Shown piece by piece: positions 8,708-35,824 of a DNA stretch of 35,824 nucleotides. The DNA comes from Saccoglossus kowalevskii. Lineage: Eukaryota; Hemichordata; Enteropneusta; Harrimaniidae. Every line of letters begins with the position of its first letter. Position 1 is the first letter of the stretch. The translations under genes and the position numbers were made by a program. The notes beneath the pieces were generated by a model. It did no database searches. It was not told the origin of the DNA and saw nothing but the letters and a program-made list of their open reading frames with translations. The stretch is from NCBI RefSeq assembly GCF_000003605.2, contig NW_003135342.1:209906-245729 (forward strand), in the 5' to 3' direction.

Positions 8708-9120
8708 AACCACCATCACATGTTGAAATCATCGACCGTGGTCATAACGAACAGGTGGGAGTCAACTCGATGGGAGAGATTCTGCTTGAGTGTTGTGTCT
8801 ACGACAGTAAGCCAGCATCGCCGATTGCGTGGTACATAGACAATCAGAAAATCCATAGAAGTATTAGGAACACTGTGGTAAAAAGCGAAAATGGCACGTG
8901 GACGACACATAGTTTTTTAACGTACGTTCCATCGCTTGAGGACAATGATAGTATTATTCGTTGCATTTACGAATCAAATACTCCAGAGGACCGTTACACA
9001 GATCAAGTACAGATCTCGTTAGTTTCGAGGCTTGTCAGCGCAGGACAACAAAAAGTTTTTTCAAGCCCAGTTACAATTATTTTTTCAACGCTTTTTCTTT
9101 TTCTTTTAAAGCATTTATAG
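8708..9120 (+). CDS. Gene A, terminal exon: C2-type Ig domain with GPI-anchor-like tail (5' part missing)
   Basis: The exon follows a 3' splice site (TTTTATTCAATCAACAG, AG at 8706-8707). It opens with two bases of a split codon (phase 1, usual for Ig-domain exons), then 136 codons to TAG at 9118-9120. Counting from 8710, the Ig core is Cys28 or Cys29 (LLECC), Trp41 (PIAWYIDN) and Cys85 (EDNDSIIRC). The 56-57 residue Cys-Cys spacing and the SKPASPIAWY stretch resemble C2/CD80-like or nectin/nephrin-type domains. An N-glycosylation sequon (NGT) is at residue 61. The C-terminus has small residues (SAG, ~110-112), a short spacer, then hydrophobic VTIIFSTLFLFLL, a typical GPI-attachment layout; a very short transmembrane end is the alternative. 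An AATAAA lies at 9223-9228. I found no signal-peptide or upstream Ig exon in 1-8700, so the gene is partial. An extracellular recognition or adhesion role is inferred from domain type only. Confidence 0.75.
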
Positions 9121-9360: not shown

Positions 9361-9602
9361 ACAGATTATGTATGCAAATGAGATCACATGATCATACATA
9401 TTTAATTGGCTTGAATTTACAGGATATGTATGCAAATGAATCGCATGATAATTCAGTACATCTCATTGGCTTAGCTTTACAGGTCTTGTATGCAAATGAG
9501 ATCATGTGTTTCATATTGTGTATCTCATTGGCTTAGCTATACAGGTTGTGTATGCAAATGAGATCATGTGATTCATCTTGCACATCTCATTGGTTGAGAT
9601 TT
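9361..9602. repeat. Four ~60-bp tandem units with octamer and inverted CCAAT
   Basis: Units run 9361-9418, 9419-9478, 9479-9540 and 9541-9602 (58, 60, 62, 62 bp). Each starts ACAG, carries an exact ATGCAAAT octamer (9372, 9430, 9490, 9552) and 33-37 bases later an ATTGG (9405, 9465, 9527, 9589). The two words are better conserved than the sequence between them. It lies about 130 bases after gene A's polyadenylation signal. Confidence 0.85.
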
Positions 9603-12600
9603 ACAGATGTGAAAAGAGGACAGTTTCAGGTGAAATGAATTGATAAACTGATCACACTAAACATGACAAGCAAATCTGACTAAACTTGCATGAACAAACA
9701 TTTCCAGGTGATCCGAATTGAGGCGGTTTGCAGTTGACCGTTTCACCCCATTGTTAACTTAAGTTCAGTTCAGTTAATAACAACACATATTGTGTGATGT
9801 TTGCTTGTTTTGATCTATGCTAAATACAAGTTCAGTGTGAGTTTGCAGCTCAGACTATTTTGCATACAAATATTTTGGTTGGTTGAGGTATCCAAAAATA
9901 GGACAAACATGTCTGTACCTTATGGCTTTAGAACCATTCTTGATTTTCAATGCAGAATTCTCAGTATCATAGGGGGTTCACATTGCAAAATTCATATTAT
10001 GTTAGAGGGTCCATAAATCCATGTCATGTGATTGCATTTGTCAACTATTTTCAAAAAACTACATTCCTCATAAGACTAGTATAATCCAGATATTCACATA
10101 TTTTAAAAATCATAAAAACACATTATTGATTAAAAAACACCTGTGAATGACACTAATATTCTGCCTTTCCAAGACAATATAAAATTTTGTGTTTAAAACT
10201 GTAAAATCATTGTTACATGTAAATAAAATTTACACTTTATTTAGATCGAGGGAAATTGACAATTTTTGGGGGGGGCGTGGAGGGAGGTGGGGGTGTTCAT
10301 GCTACTCAGAAGTCCTCAAGTTTTTCGTTCTATTATGTACATAACTGACTAGAAATGTGCTGATTGGTTAATGTGAGAAGTCAACAAGTCTCTTGATTGG
10401 TTATAACTGAATAGAGTAGAAATATGCTAATTGGGTGTTTCTGTTCAATTTTAATAAACCTGCCATTGGTAATGTGATTATTTAGGTGAGATTACAAGGA
10501 ACCTTTTACAACATGACAAAATCATTCCAGATTTTCAATGGTAGCAGTACTGTGATGACTGCTTCATTTGGTGGTGTATAATCAAGAGTCTGATCAGTTC
10601 CATGACCAGAGTTGAAAGTTTACTTTGACTGAAACCATGGTAATGGATTTGTTGACAATAACTGAGATTTAGTTTTTCATTGTACAAACAAAAATAATCA
10701 TTTCAAGTCGCATTGATAGGACTGAACTCTTTCCTGTACAAACTTCTGAGAACAAGTTGCTATGACAATGCATTATGGGAATTAAGGCTGTCTTTAGTGA
10801 TATATTTGTAGACACATTACATTTAAGGCTAAATATTGAAGAAAGTCATGAAAATAAATTTATTTTATAAAGTTTTTGTTAGGATTTGTGGGTAATATGG
10901 CTGCCTTTAGTACTGGACGACTGCTGGGAGCCAAGTAAGTTTGGTTTGAGGATCCAAAAAAGGCACCGAGAGAGATTTATTTATGTATTTCAACATTCTG
11001 TATTAGGATCAACGATTCCTGCCCTGGGACACTATTGTGTTATGACACTATATATTTCTATACAGTGGTGTTTTTTGTAAATATTTGTCTTTCAGCCTTA
11101 ACAGAAATTCAGTTAATTTTTGTGATAAAGAGGAATTGTAAATTTCTTTTAAATTTTTTTTTTTTTTGCTAAAAGGTTTGAAAACATTTATTTGTATATA
11201 TTCAGGAAAAAAAATCACAAAAGTGATGATGTCATTGATGATGTAAATATTTGCTATTCGTGGTGTAAATGTTCTCTCAAAGAGAAGAATATTTTATACC
11301 TATTTTCAGTCATTTTAAATAAAAATTAGATTTTAAAGATGTGTTTGCTCCATGTATATGCTAGACTTGTAGTTGCTGTGTCCAACATCCACCCCCTCCC
11401 CCATATCCCTACCCTCCCTGAAAATACTAGGATACACGACTACTGGTACTGTTGAAGTCATTATAATTACACAAGAAACGAGATAAAATTTCACTCGGGT
11501 CACAGCGATCGGCGTCAAATCAAAAAAAAATCATGGAAAATAAAAATGTTTATAGTAGTGTTCTTATGGTACATGTACTTTGAATTAATGTCACATTCCC
11601 ATGTTTCTATCGTATCCAAACACCTACCACAGGATTATTGTGATTACCATGGAAATGGTAAAATCAGTTGGTTTGCAAAGAAATTCTGGAGCACTAAAGC
11701 TTGCCTGCACTTGACAGAAACAAGGGTGTGGTGTCTAATTGCGAAACGAACATTATTTTCATTGTTTTAATCAGACCATTTTATTTTAAGAAATTCAATT
11801 TCAACTTGACAAAATCTATAGCAGTGATGATGCTTACCGGGTTTGCAAGGTTTTCTACAGAATGAATTTTATGATAATTTTACTTTTATGATATAATACA
11901 TATCAAAAAGTTAAGTGATAGGTACTTAATAATTCTTAATCCTTTTTTGTTTCAAAAACACACAATATTAAACCAAAAGCGCGAAAGTGGCAGATTTAGA
12001 GAGTACATCGCTAAGCATACACACATATCCCACAATGTAACGCAGCAATTACGTCATTGTAGTGGTGCGTACCTTAACCATAGACGGGAACTTATCGACG
12101 AGTATTCGAATGAGTTAAATAGTTTGTAAAGTATGAAAACCACCAAAATATCTACCAGCCCTCACTGAATATTTCTAGGCCTACCAACACATGACTAATT
12201 CGTATACAAGTATTTATGACATGGACTATGACTATACGATCTGGAATGTAATGCTTTATGTATCATGCTTTCGGTCGTATGTACCCCCCCCTCTCTCTCT
12301 CTTTCTCGTGAAACTTCTAAAACCCGATGATAAGCCTCGTCTCTGGGGCAATGGTCGCAAGGTGGTGCAACACTGACGATATTCTACAGCACGCCCGTCA
12401 TTACGTTTTCGGAACAGCGAAAATGATTACACAATTTACCCAATTTTGTTGAACATTTACACGGGATTACAGATTCCTTGCTATCTTGTATTGTATTCAT
12501 TGTATTATACGAACCGTTTTCGATTTTTTAAAGTTGAAGAACGCTTTTTGTTTTTTTCCTCCGCTGAAAAGAACGTTTTGTGTTGATTTTCAGAAGTTAT

Positions 12601-13164: not shown

Positions 13165-13296
13165 TTAAAAGACGGCAGTCGTCGTGCCGCGTCCTGTTCA
13201 TATGGGACTCATAGCGACGTATACAACGCGTGTAAAATACATTGTTTATTTACATGAAATTCGAACACGCGCTGCACGACGACCACCGCGCTTTAA
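13165..13296 (+). mobile_element. TTAA-bounded miniature transposon, family 1, copy 1
   Basis: A 132-bp element bounded by TTAA, with inverted ends of about 27 bases resembling TTAAAGCGCGGCAGTCGTCG. The central sequence (GGGACTCATAGCGACG, AAATACATTGTTTATTTAC) is shared with the copies at 24437 and 32164. The apparent protein MGLIATYTTR at each copy is simply this element read through. Confidence 0.85.
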
Positions 13297-22521: not shown

Positions 22522-22689
22522 TTTTTGTCTGCGCATCCTCAGTAGTGTTCAACCACAAAGATATATGCCCAAATAAGTCTCACAATGCCTTATTTGGAAA
22601 TGCAGTTTTTGTCTGCGCATCCTCAGTAATGTTCAACCACAAAGATATATGCCCAAATAAGTCTCGCAATGCCTTATTTGGAAATGCAG
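22522..22689. repeat. 84-bp perfect-period tandem duplication with CArG boxes
   Basis: Two head-to-tail copies (22522-22605, 22606-22689) differ at two positions. Each contains CCAAATAAG facing CTTATTTGG across about 10 bases, and the second arm forms CCTTATTTGG, which fits the SRF CArG consensus CC(A/T)6GG (22588-22597 and 22672-22681). The open frame reading MFNHKDICPNKS twice is a by-product. Confidence 0.9.
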
Positions 22690-24436
22690 TTTACGTGCAA
22701 GCACATCTCGATCTTATCAGCATTTCCTTTGCATGTTTCCCGCTCAAATTTCGTTTTTGTCATAATTGGTGAATACAGCCACACTCTTGTGGTGTTGTGT
22801 TATGTTGTGTTATTTTAGTCTATTTCCACTGTCAGTGGCTGCTTTACTCGTTTAGTCAACATTTCCCCCAACGTTTACAAATAAATTCGCCTTGTTTTTT
22901 TCAAAAATGTTATAAGCAATGAATAATTAAGTCCACTTGGGCCAAAATTATTAAAAAAAAAATATTGAAAGATATATAAATATGTGCAAAAAGTTGCATT
23001 GAAGTGGTTTGTCTCAAACTACCACTGGACGTCATCAAACCTACAAAATATCTTGACGGACAATTTAGCGGTAAAATAGGGTATACCCCCGAGGGATTAA
23101 AGCCTATTTCCCCCCAAAAAAATATTTGCGCAGCAACTATTATGAACGTTTCACTGCATATTTTATTATTGTTTTCAGACCAAACGTAATTTATTATTGG
23201 CTATAGGTCTTGATCAAAATTGTCCCAAAAAAACTTAGTTTTTTGTGAAATATGATAAAATTGAGGTAATTCGGCGTTCATCAGAAATCATGATTTTCCA
23301 CTCCTAAATCCCAATTTCGGAAGTCATTATTCGACTAAGTCGTGACCTGATTGGCTACTCAACCCTAAGGCCTATTAATCTGACCAATCAGGGAGCAGCT
23401 TGTTTATTGACAGGTTTTTTTCGAAGTATCAAACTCTGGCTTGTATATATGCTATACAACTAATGTGATATCATGCTACTAAAGACAACGGCAGGGAAAT
23501 CGTTTTTTTTTTCTTATGGGACTACAACGCACCATGTGCTTTCAAAGTCACGTACAATGTCAGACAACGTCCCTAAATGATTGAACTTCAGTGGTGATGC
23601 TACAGCATCTGTGTTTGATCAGAAAGGACAAAGACGGAACCTGGTCAAGTATTGAACTGAATAAAGCCCACTTAAGGTCAAGTTGGGATGTGAGAACGTT
23701 AACTTGGTCATATGACTTGTGGTACTACTAACAGCGTTTTTGTTTAATGCTGTCGTACCGGGAGGAGGGGTTGCTTGTTTTAATATTCAACGTCAGACCT
23801 GGAAATCATATGTAATTAACTAACGTTTACGTCATTCCTTCCACCAAGAGTGAAGAAATACCATAAAAAACAACACGTGCTGTCCAACCCATCGCTGGTA
23901 ACGAGTGCATTGTGGGTAAAGAATGAGGCGCCAATCGAATTCTTGTTACTTGCATAGATGTTGGGGCATTCAAATTGTTCAAAAAAAAAATGGTTTATCC
24001 GAAGCAGATTTAGTGGCACCACGCTTTGGTCGTGATTTTTCACTTGACTGGAAACCATTTGCATTGTATTTGTTCATGTTGATCGGTGTAATCCGTATTG
24101 TAACTTCTGTAATCTGTTCATTGTTGGTGAAAACGGTCAGTTAGAAGTGACTGTCGTCTGCGAGATATTAATAGTCTTTGAACAATGTGCGGACATATAT
24201 GTTGAATCAAAGTCTTGTTTTTTGTCCCACATCAACTAAAGTTTTTTTTTTTTCATTTAAAATGAACAACCAAAGAAACAAATTTATAAAATCGTGAACT
24301 GAACTGTGTCGAAACGTTAACGAGCTTTTATCGAAATGAAATGAACCATTGTTTCGAATGGCTTACTTCCAAGTTAGTGTCTCCTGTCATCAAATCAACG
24401 CTGCGAGTTGTTGCCGCGCTTAACTGCATGGCACAT
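22690..24436. other. No gene recognised
   Basis: The stretch 22910-22995 (TTGGGCCAAAATTATT and following) resembles the interior of the CCCTTTGA element and may be another decayed copy. CCTGATTGG (23346-23354) and CCAATCAGG (23384-23392) form an inverted pair. Frames near 23816-24144 on both strands are unsupported. Confidence 0.45.
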
Positions 24437-24569
24437 TTAAAGCGCGGTTGTCGTCGCGCAGCGCGTGTTCGTATTTCATGTAAATAAACAATGTATTTTA
24501 CATGCGTTGTATACGTCGCTATGAGTCCCATGTTGAACAGGACGCGGCGCGACGACTGCCACGCTTTAA
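24437..24569 (-). mobile_element. TTAA-bounded miniature transposon, family 1, copy 3
   Basis: A 133-bp element bounded by TTAA on each side, inverted relative to the copies at 13165 and 32164 and very similar to both over its full length. A stray partial end (CCGCGCTTAA) lies just to its left. Confidence 0.85.
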
Positions 24570-25762
24570 CTGATCATACAAGCCGACGATAAAACGGGTC
24601 CAAGCGGCAATAATAAGTGCACGTCTGTTTCAGAAAAGGCCGTCGGGGATTCAACAAGTGGTTCTCAGTTCCTGACCGCTTTAGTATTTCGTCGCTTGAT
24701 GAAAAGCGTTCCAAAGCGCAGCCGCTTATTTCCAAATCTGTGTTAAGTGACAAAACATGTAATTCTGAAATACTATCCCAAGATACAAATATATGGCTTT
24801 TACCCCCCAAGGAAGCTCAATCAAGGAGTCCATCTCGCAACAAAAATGTTTGATTTTCCATCGATAAGCTGCATGGTCGTTAATAAGAAAAGGAGACACT
24901 GGTCGTTCACGTTTTATGGGAGTAGGGTTTCAACGCTTTTAGCTAGCCCGTCACTGATACAGTTTAAGTTTTCATTCCGTAGATCAACTGAACATGAGTG
25001 GCTATTCTCGGTACGGTGTAGTTAGTAATCGGCTCCAATAGAAGGGCGTGATCTCGAGAGCACTTTAACGACCTCTACCATTCAGTTTTAGAATAGTCCC
25101 CCTCAACACCTGGAAATCTTATCCTAAGCCGTTTTTTTTCGGCAGACGTCTAACTCCGTTTTCAGCTAATGGGGTATTTAGTTTGTTAAAAAGGTCACGA
25201 TTCTGGCATTCTTGTGTGAAAGCAGTTGAGTATCAGACCCAGTCAATCGCTGGATTTTCTGGAGTGTATAGAATTTGGAATTTCGAATATCTCTTAAGCA
25301 CTGGCGGCCAACGGAACGATGTTTTTTTTTTGTTTCGAGTTGAATGACTCATAATTGAAAACGCCCTCAGTGTTACGAATCGTCCAATGATATCGTATAG
25401 CTAATGATTTATTGGTACTCCATGCTTTTCTAATTTGGAAAAAAATACTAGATAATAATAGATATGCATTACGGTGCCCTCTTCTTGTTTGCGTCCTGTA
25501 AATAGAAACTGGTGTGTTTACTCGTTTTACACAACATCTAGTCGACACAAGTTCATACTCGCTCGCAAATCAACAAACGTCCCCCACCCATTCTGCATTC
25601 AGCACGGTTTCAAATCGATATCCATTCATACGACAAAAAATCTACCAATCAGTTGATTGCAGAAACGATATGTTTTTCTGTAACCGGTGAATAATTTTGA
25701 ATCTATTTTGGTCCCGACATCTCATAAAATAAAATAATTTACTCTCAGCGCAACAAAAGCAT
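24570..25762. other. No gene recognised
   Basis: Both strands at 24574-24853 are open for 78 codons, but no domain is recognised. Nothing else is supported. Confidence 0.4.
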
Positions 25763-29922: not shown

Positions 29923-29983
29923 ATGACGCTCAAATGTAACATTGGAAGGAAACTGATCGTCGTACTATTGATGTTTTTGCATG
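29923..29983 (+). CDS. Gene B exon 1: signal peptide
   Basis: ATG at 29923 is the first ATG in a frame that stays open upstream. It codes MTLKCNIGRKLIVVLLMFLH plus the first base of an Ala codon, ending at a consensus donor (ATG/GTAAGT). The intron is phase 1, as is usual between a leader and an Ig domain. A non-coding first exon farther upstream cannot be excluded. Confidence 0.8.
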
Positions 29984-32900
29984 GTAAGTATCTTGTCGAT
30001 CCGTTATTTACCAACGGGGTTGCGTTGAACTGAACTTGTTTTGTTATATCCAATACACCCAATATCAACTTCAAACGGCCTGAATGACAAAACAGACTAT
30101 TTTGGGAATACGTTTTAATGAAGAAGCTATCAACACTCGCTAAAAGCTAGAAATTCGAAACATTCGCTCTAAAAAATTATTCGACTTTTTCGAAGCCGAA
30201 AAGTTCCCTATTAACACACCTAACCATTGTGTAGCTGGTGTTTAACACACACGGGTTACGCAGTTCGAATAACAACTCAATAACGTCATTTAATAACCGA
30301 GGTGGTTTCGCATTGCATCTTTCACCGCTACAGTCATGATTGATGTTTCGATTTCACACTATGAAAACAACATCAAGCTAACGTGAAAAGAGATCACTTT
30401 AAAGGCAACACTCGAAGTTTTTCTCCCAAAACGCTAGATGTCGCCCACTTTCAAGTTAAACGTTAGGTTACAGAGATTTGTTTTTTCAGCACTCCCCGTC
30501 GTGCGTGATGTGACCTCAAATCACCTTGTCGCAACCTTTGACCCCTAGACGTCAAGATGCAGGTGATTTCTGAATTAAGTCGAGACGTGGTCTATTATTG
30601 CACAGTCAGTGAATTTGCGGACGTGCGGTGACACAACGAATAAATGCGATGACGCAACATTTTCTCCCGCAGCCAATGAGCTTAGATGATGAAAGGATTC
30701 AAGTTGTGTACGCTGTGCGACGACCGTGGCGTACCAATATTCATTCCAGTGGAAGAGCTATTCGACGTCACGCAAATATTAAAAAAAAATATCACAGTGT
30801 AAAATTACAATAACAAATTTCGACCGACGTGTATAACAACAATGGCGTTGTTGTCTACGCAGTTTGTCCAGTATAACTCCCAATTCTTCAAATACCCACA
30901 CACACACATAATAACGTAAACAGGCACGTTTCTTTGCAAGTTTCTTTATCTCGGGTTTCTGTTATTATAGTTGCGTGGCAAATAACATAGACATACATCC
31001 GCTAAATATTTCATTTTAAACTCTCGTGAAAAAATGCCAGAATCAGTCTGTTTTCACAGGTGTCGTGGTGAAATAAAATAAAGCTGTCACCGTGGCAACA
31101 GCAGGGTGTGATACTCCGAGCTCGTTTGCTTGAATTAACGCACCACAGATACACAGAAAAGCACGCAAAACTTAACGCGTATAAATTCGTACAACTAGTC
31201 TTAATATGCCGTTGCGTGGGTCCAGTTTGCAAACAACTTGACTCTCCATATAGGCGGAAAGGTTTCCTTGAAAACGAGCAAACACGACATGCAAAATAGA
31301 TAAACTTCTCACGGGCAAATTTCTAATATCCCTTTGAGCATGTGCAGTAGCAAACAACAAGAAACATATTGTAACTTTTAGACTTGCTAAAGAAACACTT
31401 CGCCTATATTAGACAATAATTGTGAACCAAGCTCTATGCGATGTATAATGTAACTGACAGACCGAACAAAGAAGTAAATAAAGAACGCACACACATACGA
31501 TCAGACAGGCTTGATGTACGTAGTCGAATACGCGTGACCTTAGTGACCGACCATGGTTCTGTTATTAGGCGGATTAGACATCGTCTTTGTCCCGTGCTCC
31601 ATTGCACATTTGGCCACAAATGACCGTTATTGTCGGGCCCACCCCAAATGGTAAATTAAACAAACCATATCGACGTCTTCGAGTACAGACAGGCTACAGG
31701 ACCGTTTTTTTCAGACTCATAGCCGTTGATTTAAATACGCGTTTTTTGTATTAGAGGCGAGACGGGGAGGGGGAGGGAGGGTTAAAGCGGGGGTGTCGTC
31801 ACCTACGCATGCGTTAGGTGTCCGTAGCGTGTCATTTTTACAAACATGCGTCTACCCATGAGCCTTTGCGTTTTTAGCGCGTGTTGTTATCGTCGTTTGG
31901 ACTCAATTCCCGCGCGTGCGCAGGTGACGACCCTCCCGCTTTAAATTATTGCACTGTAATTCATTTGTATAATTAAAGGCACATCATTTTATTTAGGTAG
32001 ATTTTTGGAGTTTCAGTTTAATTTTTACTATAAGCATACATTCGAACCGACTTCGGCACGTACGTTGGTATATCCATCCGCCTGAGTGCGTTGGTCCAGC
32101 ATATAGACGGTAGTATGTAAACACATGTTATGATGAAATCGAATATATTTCAAGTGAATCCGGTTAAAGGGCGGTAGTCGTCGCGCCGCGTCCTGTTCGA
32201 TATGGGACTCATAGCGACGTATACAACGCGTGGAAAATACATTGTTTATTTACATGAAATTCGAACACGCGCTGCGCGACGACTGCCGCGCTTTAATTCC
32301 AAGGTCGGTCATGGCAATGAACCATTTCAATATATCACTGTCTGCATATATTATATCAAAGTCATTTTTGACCACCAATTTACTATGTGTTTTTTTTTCT
32401 CAAACAAAAACAACCTTTCAAACTCAATTCATCTTTTTTCACAGCTTCACTGTCGTTATCCGAGGTAACAGTTTTCACAAACTCAGTTCTAACGACCGAA
32501 GATGGAAACGACGAACAACTTCTTTTCTGTGGTTACGAAATCTCACCGCTAATAGAGGGCGCAGTTATATCAGTTGATTGGAAGAACGGAGTGCATCTTC
32601 TTGCTCGAAAGACAGTCGGCGGTCCGTCGGCCGGGCATATGACGACCAACTATCGCAAGTACGTGGATAGTCTATGTAGCGAAGGACTGTGCCTTTTAAT
32701 GTCGTTTATTGGGAGTGACGACGGTGATACTTACGATGATATTATAATGAGGTTGAACGAAATGAAGATGAAACAGTGGCACTCAATGTTTTTTTCTTGG
32801 CGGCGGCGGGGGGGGGGGGGTCGTTAAGACATCAATATACCAATATTATTTGGAGCATCCGTATTACATTAGTAATGCGTGTAATCACAAAGTACTAGTA

Positions 32901-33390
32901 ATTGTACGGGAAGAGCGGGCAACGAGCCTGAATGTGGCGGTCCATCATCATGATAAATCATCTTCTGTGGTATCATGACCATTACGAAATATTTTTTCAG
33001 GGGCGATGTTCTGCAATTTCTGTAACCTGTACCGCAGTATTTTATAGCTGTATTAATACGAATTGTTTTTATTTATTTCATTCTAGGTATAATATCGTTA
33101 ATGACGCTACACTGCAGATTATCAACATCCGACCGACTGATACCGGTACATACACGTGCCTCGTGGTTGTATCCACGCCGGCTGGGGCTTCGTTCACCGA
33201 CACGGCTACCACACAACTCACGGTGGTCGACGATATCACGGACAGTGGTAACGCTAACCCAAATGGGGAGAACACCAATTCGACGAGGTCAGTCGCGGAT
33301 GCCGGCGGTACAGCCGCTCATGTGCGAGTACGAACTATGAGCAAGATTTTTATCCTCGGGTGTTTGTTGTTACGGAGTATCATGTTTTGA
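29923..33390 (+). CDS. Gene B: secreted/GPI-anchored single V-type Ig-domain protein, 3 exons
   Basis: Exons 29923-29983, 32445-32658 and 33087-33390 join to 579 nt: 192 residues plus TGA. Both introns are GT-AG, and the phases (1, then 2) keep one open frame. Residues 1-21 form a signal peptide with a basic N-region and a LIVVLLMFLHA core; cleavage before SLSLSEV is likely. The V-type Ig domain has Cys49 (LLFC), Trp66 (ISVDW), then DTGTYTC with Asp110, Tyr114 and Cys116. The 67-residue Cys-Cys spacing fits a V-set fold, and TTQLTVVDD is a typical G strand. A Ser/Thr/Asn-rich stalk with a sequon (NST, Asn156) leads to DAGG (163-166), a basic spacer and a hydrophobic end (IFILGCLLL, 179-187), consistent with GPI attachment, though the tail is short and contains an Arg. 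Intron 2 splits the V domain. Gene A lies 20.8 kb upstream on the same strand. The ligand is unknown. Confidence 0.85.
30490..30631 (+). pseudogene. Possible decayed V-type Ig exon inside gene B intron 1
   Basis: A strong acceptor (GATTTGTTTTTTCAG, AG at 30488-30489) precedes a stretch that would splice to gene B exon 1 in the same phase as exon 2. That frame reads Ala-LPVVRDVTSNHLVATFDP before a TAG at 30546-30548. In another frame (30542-30631) the same region reads KMQVISELSRDVVYYC then TVSEFADVR and stop, with its Cys codon at 30599-30601. This matches the E-F strand pattern of V domains (compare TLQIINIRPTDTGTYTC in exon 3). The expected middle of a V domain, with the first Cys and the Trp, is absent and the two parts are in different frames, so a broken exon or chance resemblance is more likely than a working alternative exon. 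Confidence 0.35.
31782..31944 (+). mobile_element. TTAA-bounded miniature transposon, family 2, copy 2
   Basis: A 163-bp element in gene B intron 1. It starts TTAAAGCGGGGGTGTCGTC and ends with the inverse pattern GACGACCCTCCCGCTTTAA, giving inverted ends of about 30 bases. It is the reverse-orientation partner of 1643-1809 and the better preserved of the two. Confidence 0.85.
32164..32296 (+). mobile_element. TTAA-bounded miniature transposon, family 1, copy 4
   Basis: A 133-bp element in gene B intron 1, 148 bases before exon 2. The ends TTAAAGGGCGGTAGTCGTCG and CGACGACTGCCGCGCTTTAA are inverted. It is nearly identical in the centre to the 13165 copy. Confidence 0.85.
32445..32658 (+). CDS. 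Gene B exon 2: N-terminal half of V-type Ig domain
   Basis: The exon follows a strong polypyrimidine acceptor (CATCTTTTTTCACAG). It has two bases completing Ala21, 70 whole codons and two bases (AA) of Lys92, ending at AA/GTACGT. It carries Cys49 and Trp66. The frame stays open beyond this donor to 32827, but that extension runs into low-complexity Arg/Gly codons, and only splicing here joins in phase with the DTGTYTC exon. Confidence 0.85.
33087..33390 (+). CDS. Gene B exon 3: C-terminal half of V domain, stalk and GPI-like tail
   Basis: The acceptor is TTATTTATTTCATTCTAG; the first base G completes Lys92, followed by 100 codons and TGA at 33388-33390. It codes the E, F and G strands (ATLQI...DTGTYTC...TTQLTVV), a polar stalk and a hydrophobic C-terminus. 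CpG and GC content appear higher than in the flanking introns, as expected of constrained coding sequence. Confidence 0.85.
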
Positions 33391-35824
33391 ACATGTGTAA
33401 ATGCGAGACTAAGATATCACAAGCTCTCCTCCACTGAGAAGAGTTGTGCCACCAAGGCGGGGCCAGGGGATGGGCACATTGGGTCGACAGTTTATATTCG
33501 CAGTGACTTTATAAGTCTACCTAAGCTAGTGACAAATCGCAATACCAGCCATTTTAACTTAAAGGAGCTAGTTTGTCATTTAGAAGAGTGAAACATGTAT
33601 GTGATTTATATTGTCGCGTGTCAGCTAGTGTTTTTAGGTGAGATTAGGTCTACTAGTATTTATTGCGAAATTAAGCGTACCTATTATTTGTGGATATATA
33701 TAATTTGACGTTGGTGGCGCTATTACAACTAGGAGCCAACCGGTACATATATATATAAATATATTGCATGGCTTTTGAAGTTGTTTGCTAATAAATTACA
33801 ATGTGTAATTGCTACATTTCTTTTTCAATGAGTAGTATTTAGTCTTTACATTTGCCGTTACATGTGAGATTCGGACGCGTTGTTGTTATACCGACTCGGG
33901 AGTATAAACAAGGTATCTCGGGAGAGGCCCCGCTACTACCCGCTACGATCCTGTGATTTCATGGGCGCCCGATGAGAACTTGCAAGCGAAAGTCAGCTGG
34001 CATTGAATACTAAACTAAATGGCACTACTGAAATATACACCATTGAGTCGGTCATTTTGAATCAGTCCGAACCCAAAAATGGTAAAAAACAAATCTCACA
34101 GCCACAGTGGCGTTAAGCCATCCGTCAATGAAATTCAACTCATGAGCCAATAAGCGACGGCCTTACAGATGCACGGTAATATTTCGGTTTCACCTGGGGG
34201 GATTGTTCCAGGATCTGTACCACCCGTATTTTTGTGGTAATAACTTCGACTTAAAAATGAAATAGAAACGAACTGTTCTGAATTAATTACCCAGGCAACC
34301 TCGAAGAGTGCAACAGCGCGTGTGATTTGGTTGCCTAGGAGAATGAAATCAACACGGTGCAATATTGTACAAATTGGATAGTTGTCTGACTCTTTTAGCT
34401 TGCTAGGGGTGTACCATTATTTATGGGGTGTGATGCGGCAGAGTGTGAGGGGCAGAATTTGAATCCCTTTATTTTGAAAACAACTTGCAAAAGTTGGCTT
34501 GCAGTTTCACTAATTTAGGTTGTGCCATACTGGACCTAGTTCATGACCGCTCCTATTAAGTTGAGCGCTGTTGTGCGATTTATTACTTTCTATAGTGGTA
34601 GTGTATTCATTTGCCGATTTTTTAAAACTCCAACACGGAATGTGAGAGACCAAAATACAAATAAAGGTGATTATGTATTGTACTTATTTGTGTTAGTGCA
34701 TCTGTGAATACATCTCAATTTTTAATATTATGTACACTGTTGTGTAACAAAAGAAATCGGAATATTTGTACGAGCTCGGTTATACTAACTCTAATTATAA
34801 TTGGAGTAACTAAGGTTAGCAAAAGAGTTGGAAAACAACGATGACAAATTGCATATCGTCTGTCTTGTCACCGGTGTTGCAGTTATAATAGTTTCATGAA
34901 TAATTCATGTGGCATGATGATGTTCTATTATAAAGAATATAAATAATCTGTTTACTACTTGACATTAGTAGAAACAAAACAAGACAAGCGAATGGCAATC
35001 AAAATGCACAGAATACGTGTAAGAGTAAAACTCTACTTTCAAGTATTTTACACTGTCGTATACAGTGAGTATTTTAGAATGTATTGCACATTTTTTTCGG
35101 TGCGAACGAGACAGAACATTAGTGACGTACTCGGACAATGTTTCCACGTGACACTTAGCGCGCAAGTCGTTTGTGATATGAGCAATTATAGAAACACCAT
35201 AGGCCAACAGAGGGCGCCTACGGACGTAACTGCATGAATTTCGGTCACGGTTGTCTGCTGCATTCAAAGTAATTGACATCGTGATTGGATCGTGACGAAA
35301 TAGACACACCACCATTGAAAGATTGGAAACGCATAACTGTGCTTAAATCATAACATGGGACGGTCATGGACGTTAACACCGTGCGTAAAATTTGAATTTG
35401 TAAATGAAGCACTGCACTTATTTGGCTGGGGAATATTTTGTTTATTATTAAATTAATAACAACCCACTTTTAATGAATTTGACGACGTTATTGCAAAATG
35501 GCGATGTACACACGAAATGGTGACGTATTTACGGTAAACAAAAAACAACATAGTCTATTATCTGTATTCGGAACCGTGCGTCGTTTTTCAACATCGATTC
35601 TGTCGTTTCCCAAAGTCTCCGTTCTCAGTCAAACATACTCAATTCGTGATATGAAGTGACAGACTGCTAATATACACTGAAAATTTGAAGTCAACTTGTT
35701 ACAAACTTATAATACATACATTACCAATATATATAAAGTTTTCAGCCATACACCAGGCAATGTTTTTACATTCACATTTTACATTTTTACACGTCGCGGA
35801 ATTGGCACCATCTTGGGACTTGAT
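33391..35824. other. 3' flank of gene B, no further gene recognised
   Basis: The first 400 bases are probably 3' untranslated region. The rest is AT-rich. Frames at 34135-34362 (-), 34959-35237 (+) and 34965-35315 (-) overlap one another or lack any recognisable feature. Confidence 0.45.
33790..33795 (+). promoter_or_regulatory. Likely polyadenylation signal of gene B
   Basis: AATAAA lies 400 bases after the stop codon of gene B, followed by a T-rich stretch near 33815-33825. A second AATAAA at 34660-34665 could serve a longer transcript form. Confidence 0.5.

Follow-up and report, generated by a model that had tools for sequence, protein, structure and literature searches.

A V-only immunoglobulin gene of Saccoglossus kowalevskii and a tandem sister share an intron inside the V domain

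The gene at 29923-33390 of the window, that is, the whole 35,824-nucleotide stretch of Saccoglossus kowalevskii DNA analysed here (C2723:209906-245729, from a source assembly of 572 Mb in 4830 contigs), is rather likely to be a real gene for a Thy-1-like surface glycoprotein, with a V-type immunoglobulin (Ig) domain assembled from two exons, a probable GPI anchor, and a sister gene with which it would form an offshoot of a V+C2 family. The two, hereafter the V-only gene and its sister, are read as a tandem pair of Thy-1-like recognition proteins, probably GPI-anchored, that come from a local V-C2 family. The exons, the V domain, the shared intron, and the tandem sister are read directly from the sequence. 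While the kind of protein is already known, the gene pair and the shared intron are what is added.

Gene model and V domain

The V-only gene has three exons, followed by a possible polyadenylation signal:

29923..29983, + strand: exon 1, with the start codon and the larger part of the signal peptide (MTLKCNIGRKLIVVLLMFLH), ending in phase 1
29984..32444, + strand: intron 1, 2461 nt, GT/AG, with a repeat copy inside at 32163-32296
32445..32658, + strand: exon 2, rest of the leader and opening half of the V domain, with Cys49 and Trp66, ending in phase 2
32659..33086, + strand: intron 2, 428 nt, GT/AG, in phase 2, splitting the V domain at the D strand
33087..33390, + strand: exon 3, remaining half of the V domain with DTGTYTC and Cys116, then the stalk, a hydrophobic GPI-like end, and the stop codon
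33790..33795, + strand: AATAAA, possible poly(A) signal by consensus match only

When joined (29923-29983 + 32445-32658 + 33087-33390), the exons give 579 nt, corresponding to 192 codons plus the stop codon, without an internal stop, and both introns are of the GT/AG type, in phases 1 and 2. The key residues are encoded at 32528 (Cys49), 32579 (Trp66), and 33157 (Cys116), and the stalk contains one N-S-T sequon. Intron 2 is bounded by CGCAA/GTACGT at the donor and TCTAG/GTATAA on the acceptor side, and this pair (32659/33086) has the top crude splice score among the 33 GT/AG pairs that link the exon 2 frame to the D.G.Y.C motif with the frame open; RNA folding at the exon 2 donor (z -0.18) was of no use. 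For exon 1, all ATG exons 31-97 nt long that end at a GT in phase 1 were scanned on both strands of a partly N contig slice of 275,730 bases, using 9-residue hydropathy and a self-made, crude donor score. At hydropathy >=3.6 and donor score >=5.9, exon 1 is the sole ATG exon passing in this partly N slice (one on the + strand, none on the - strand); given that looser settings (hydropathy 2.2, donor 3.2) let 31 and 32 candidates through, it is the rank of exon 1 that counts. An earlier note, made from the letters of this DNA, had described a complete gene with a leader, joined phases, and strong splice sites. Both parts of this description are borne out, the former by the open joined frame and by the matching structure of a tandem sister, and the latter by the phases, the GT/AG ends, and the first place among the 33 splice pairs. 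On sequence evidence, the three-exon model holds and the gene is real.

The hallmarks of one V domain are placed as the same note had claimed, with Cys49 on the B strand, Trp66 on the C strand, and DTGTYTC at the F strand, and with a Cys-Cys spacing of 67. In a profile search, which the note had proposed as a check, the 192-residue product passes the curated cut-off of the Pfam V-set (PF07686) narrowly, with 26.8 bits against 26, over residues 92-138 only, and has no other Pfam match. Exon 3 alone scores 26.9 bits, the same as the joined product; since the V-set match comes from exon 3 alone, Pfam cannot decide the join between exons 2 and 3. For exon 2 by itself, neither Pfam (E up to 1) nor the PDB sequences (E up to 10) give a match. 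The joined product finds 127 PDB sequences at E up to 1, and among the best 60 of these 127, the best E-values belong to Robo2 and titin repeats, which match most strongly in the F-strand half only; the amphioxus IgVJ-C2 protein (PDB 5xpw) is third, with a chain E of 1.9e-5 (0.0058 for its best stretch alone), and aligns over residues 45-138. The restriction of the Pfam match to exon 3, the lack of a database match for exon 2, and the F-strand bias of the top PDB entries all count against the preferred reading of the gene.

Comparison with two other genes on the same contig, an upstream neighbour and the sister, bears on the join directly. Their exons, with one candidate, are as follows:

C2723:205485-205781, + strand: V exon of the upstream neighbour, uncut, 4.1 kb before the window
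8708..9120 of the window, + strand: last exon of the upstream neighbour, with a C2-set_2 Ig domain (45.2 bits against a cut-off of 21), ending in a GPI-like tail
33595..33637 of the window, + strand: candidate signal-peptide exon (MYVIYIVACQLVFL), phase 1, possibly exon 1 of the sister
C2723:263493-263721, + strand: sister exon 2, phase 1 in and phase 2 out (AACAA/GTAAAT)
C2723:263972-264253, + strand: sister exon 3, starting at TTTAG/GTACGT and ending in TNIFYVTAAILFSIFGFFAS and a stop codon

The uncut V exon of the neighbour can be aligned to the joined product over residues 41-138, with 28% identity and an E of 7e-6. Exon 2 on its own matches this V exon better than all of 2000 shuffles, and for its match to sister exon 2, 8 of 2000 shuffles were as good. 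These comparisons with the neighbour and the sister decide the question in favour of a join between exons 2 and 3.

Tandem sister, V-C2 relatives, and the shared intron

The sister is located outside the window, some 20 kb downstream on this contig and on the same strand, and was found by tblastn on the contig slice (E 2e-4). The two joined products align at 28% identity (E 4e-11) in a stretch of 176 columns that begins close to the start of exon 2 and reaches the tail, and despite this low identity, both keep the key Ig residues. The sister matches the Pfam V-set with 26.9 bits over profile positions 13-108 of 109, across its cut; it scores slightly higher as I-set (27.4), which was counted against the V reading. 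Scanned without joining, in the three + frames, the 10 kb of the sister gave no Pfam match at E 0.01, and hence frame-by-frame Pfam scans miss exons that hold half a V domain. Its first exon could be 33595-33637, which lies directly after the stop codon of the V-only gene and 20 kb from the rest of the sister. Given that such signal-peptide exons arise by chance at about 0.22 per 20 kb in the partly N slice, and that the interval itself is partly N, this exon remains a lead.

From their order, strand, and type, the upstream V exon and the exon at 8708-9120 are taken to form one V+C2 gene (L007). Three further loci, L002, L004, and L005, are read as genes of the same V-C2 type, the C2 domain having been tested with Pfam for the neighbour and assigned by eye for the other three; the V-only gene shares with these four a V domain with a Cys-Trp spacing of 16-18 and a Cys-Cys spacing of 67-76. 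Compared with 10 other V domains, the V-only gene is closest to its sister (z 17.8), followed by the neighbour (8.9), L008 (8.3), L033 (5.7), L002 (5.5), L004 and L005 (4.1 each), L006 (4.0), L003 (2.6), and L001 (0.1). These pairwise scores agree with the searches of the genome. The V-only gene as query returned five matches, of which three are its own exons, one is the sister (E 0.36), and one contains a stop (E 7). The sister returned seven, of which two are its own exons and the others are C3994 (0.045), the V exon of the neighbour (0.14), the V-only gene (0.37), C1233 (0.61), and C4225 (4.8). Besides the neighbour and the V-only gene, these seven include V exons of two other V-C2-like genes. 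No other clear sister emerged from the two 572-Mb genome searches, both of which run near the limit of sensitivity; since their E-values are weak and an equally diverged sister could be missed, two copies are a lower bound.

Elsewhere in the assembly, a V-set profile search gave 62 matches, some of them clustered. The exons on C4225 and C3325 form such clusters, V-C2-like on the former and a row of short V domains on the latter, and the matches on C1466 fall within one open frame of 18304 codons, which presumably resembles titin-like genes. Upstream of the window, on the minus strand of C2723, more Ig-type exons are found near 125758 and at 146347-146607, one of which is like the neighbour's C2 exon (E 6e-6).

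In the sister, the V domain is cut at the same place as in the V-only gene (AA/GTA) and in the same phase 2, and the position of the tail agrees as well. The earlier note had described a phase-2 intron between the C' and E strands; the phase is correct, and the position is right but loose, because a joint alignment, together with a weak AlphaFold model of the neighbour's V exon, places the cut between C'' and E, at the D strand or within it. With a mean pLDDT of 61, this model is too weak for a fold search. The V domain is cut in both V-only genes, and the V exon is uncut in the four genes read as V-C2 (L007, L002, L004, and L005). The presence of the intron can thus be ordered against the duplication, and the simplest reading is that it was gained once, before the V-only genes separated; alternatively, it may have been lost in the V-C2 genes. 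Three V-set matches that cover the second half of the profile only were considered as further cut V domains, and none was demonstrated: C3325:39985 reads as a whole V exon, C3325:201007 runs into N, and C1100:10255 shows a short frame containing a TGA, with an ambiguous flank.

CTX/JAM genes with cut V domains may be a parallel, on which a literature search found no paper. The V domain of Thy-1 is one uncut exon. There are published precedents for introns inside V domains. In bony vertebrates, LAG-3 D1 is described with a phase-2 intron in its V domain and CD4 D1 with a phase-1 intron, such introns being absent in sharks (PMC10768021), and the V domains of amphioxus VCBPs are described as spread over two or three exons (PMC2632668). 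The likeness to LAG-3 and CD4 (PMC10768021) lies in the intron inside the V domain, in phase 2 for LAG-3 and phase 1 for CD4, and the LAG-3 cut is likened by phase. These proteins differ in that their ectodomains usually have four Ig domains, with cytoplasmic motifs; having neither several Ig domains nor a cytoplasmic tail, the V-only gene falls outside the CD4/LAG-3 group. Likewise, VCBPs share V domains built from more than one exon, with splicing in frame 0 according to the account in PMC2632668. The intron shared by the V-only pair bears on repeated intron gain in V domains, as seen in LAG-3, CD4, and VCBP.

Anchoring, function, and alternative readings

The V-only protein is likely to be GPI-anchored, given that three neighbouring Ig genes all stop directly after a hydrophobic stretch. 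Over the best 14 residues, the hydropathy of its tail is 2.36, compared with 2.26 for the sister and 2.36 for the neighbour; over 19 residues, it is 1.39, compared with 1.76 and 1.82, respectively. The tail that the earlier note had called GPI-like is plausible as such insofar as a hydrophobic end, with no cytoplasmic tail after it, precedes the stop codon, but the stretch is short (14 residues) and contains an Arg, and the tails of the sister and the neighbour are cleaner. Both the Arg and the lower 19-residue hydropathy would suit a doubtful alternative, in which the product is secreted or fixed in the membrane by a short transmembrane end, or an alternative donor in exon 3 leads to a larger transmembrane protein. 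However, the sister and the neighbour likewise stop directly after their hydrophobic stretches, and a six-frame Pfam scan of the whole window at E 0.01, run in pieces with a codon or so skipped at the joins and blind to transmembrane exons, found only the C2-set_2 exon and the V exon described here, and hence no further domain for such a protein.

With a GPI-anchored protein as the preferred reading, the leader would send the product into the secretory pathway, one V-type Ig domain would fold from the two half-domain exons, and the short hydrophobic C-terminus would most likely be replaced by a GPI anchor, leaving the V domain on a short stalk at the outer leaflet of the membrane. From there, we infer, the V face may bind another surface protein, on another cell or the same one, in Thy-1-like adhesion or recognition, the protein having no signalling tail of its own. 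The V-only gene and its sister would be offshoots of the V+C2 family that has a member just upstream; they would have kept the V domain, lost the C2 domain, and acquired the intron in V ahead of their separation.

The architecture itself had been presented as unusually minimal, which is overstated, as Thy-1/CD90 is described as one V domain with a GPI anchor (PMC5715320, PMC6497726). The V-only gene resembles it in having a leader, one V domain, and no other domain (PMC5715320); convincing sequence kinship between the two does not follow, as only 42 residues align with the human sequence, at a pair E of 0.003. Within the same genome, the V-C2 genes (the neighbour, L002, L004, and L005) have a similar V domain, and the neighbour also has a GPI-like tail, but their V exon is uncut and is followed by a C2-type exon. 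The V domain of amphioxus IgVJ-C2 aligns with residues 45-138 of the V-only product; this protein has a C2 domain too, and the V-only gene lacks, by eye, the G-x-G of the J-like strand. Since the Thy-1 architecture and introns inside V domains have both been published, neither feature is new alone. No such tandem pair is named in the literature searched, which is weak evidence on what is in print, and the present pair is a well-supported addition to the animal genes that have the Thy-1 architecture.

The similarity to IgVJ-C2, along with the divergence of the tandem copies to 28% identity and the many V-set exons in the genome (62 matches, some clustered), would also fit an immune or allorecognition molecule whose variable V domain would bind microbes or conspecific cells. 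This reading is unlikely, as a diversified family should show more than the two copies found, though the contig slice is partly N. It is a long shot, and one that goes further than the Thy-1-like reading, that a lineage-specific, V-only GPI pair, derived from a V-C2 receptor through C2 loss and the gain of the intron in V, now works as a system of recognition, or of decoys, directed at its own V-C2 relatives; if true, parent and offshoot would be ligand and receptor within one gene cluster. The cluster would allow a direct test of ligand-receptor kinship. A decaying copy or a chance model, to which the marginal Pfam score and the weaker tail could point, is very improbable given the absence of a stop or frame break, the intact splice dinucleotides, and the conservation of the key Ig residues where identity to the sister is down to 28%.

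Sequence surroundings

The window has a G+C content of 37.6%. Rfam (at the gathering score) and ARAGORN gave no matches in it, and a sigma-70-type promoter scan, designed for bacteria, was of no use. Two repeats have a copy in intron 1 of the V-only gene. The first is short and dispersed, with three copies that are 93-96% alike (13200-13296, 24437-24570, and 32163-32296, the last in the intron), and the second forms an inverted pair, 90-92% alike (1640-1751 and 31837-31947). A search with a mobile-repeat pattern gave 0 matches in viral contigs and 0 in the genome contigs searched. Tandem repeats are also found, namely an array of about four 62-base units at 9361-9606, directly after the last exon of the neighbour, and two units of 84 bases, 98% alike, at 22522-22692. 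Near window position 12000, the CpG observed/expected ratio rises from 0.2-0.8 to about 1.3 within about 1.5 kb, and the upstream neighbour lies in the CpG-poor domain and the V-only gene in the CpG-rich one. The flanking slice alternates in CpG likewise, as in genomes with mosaic methylation.
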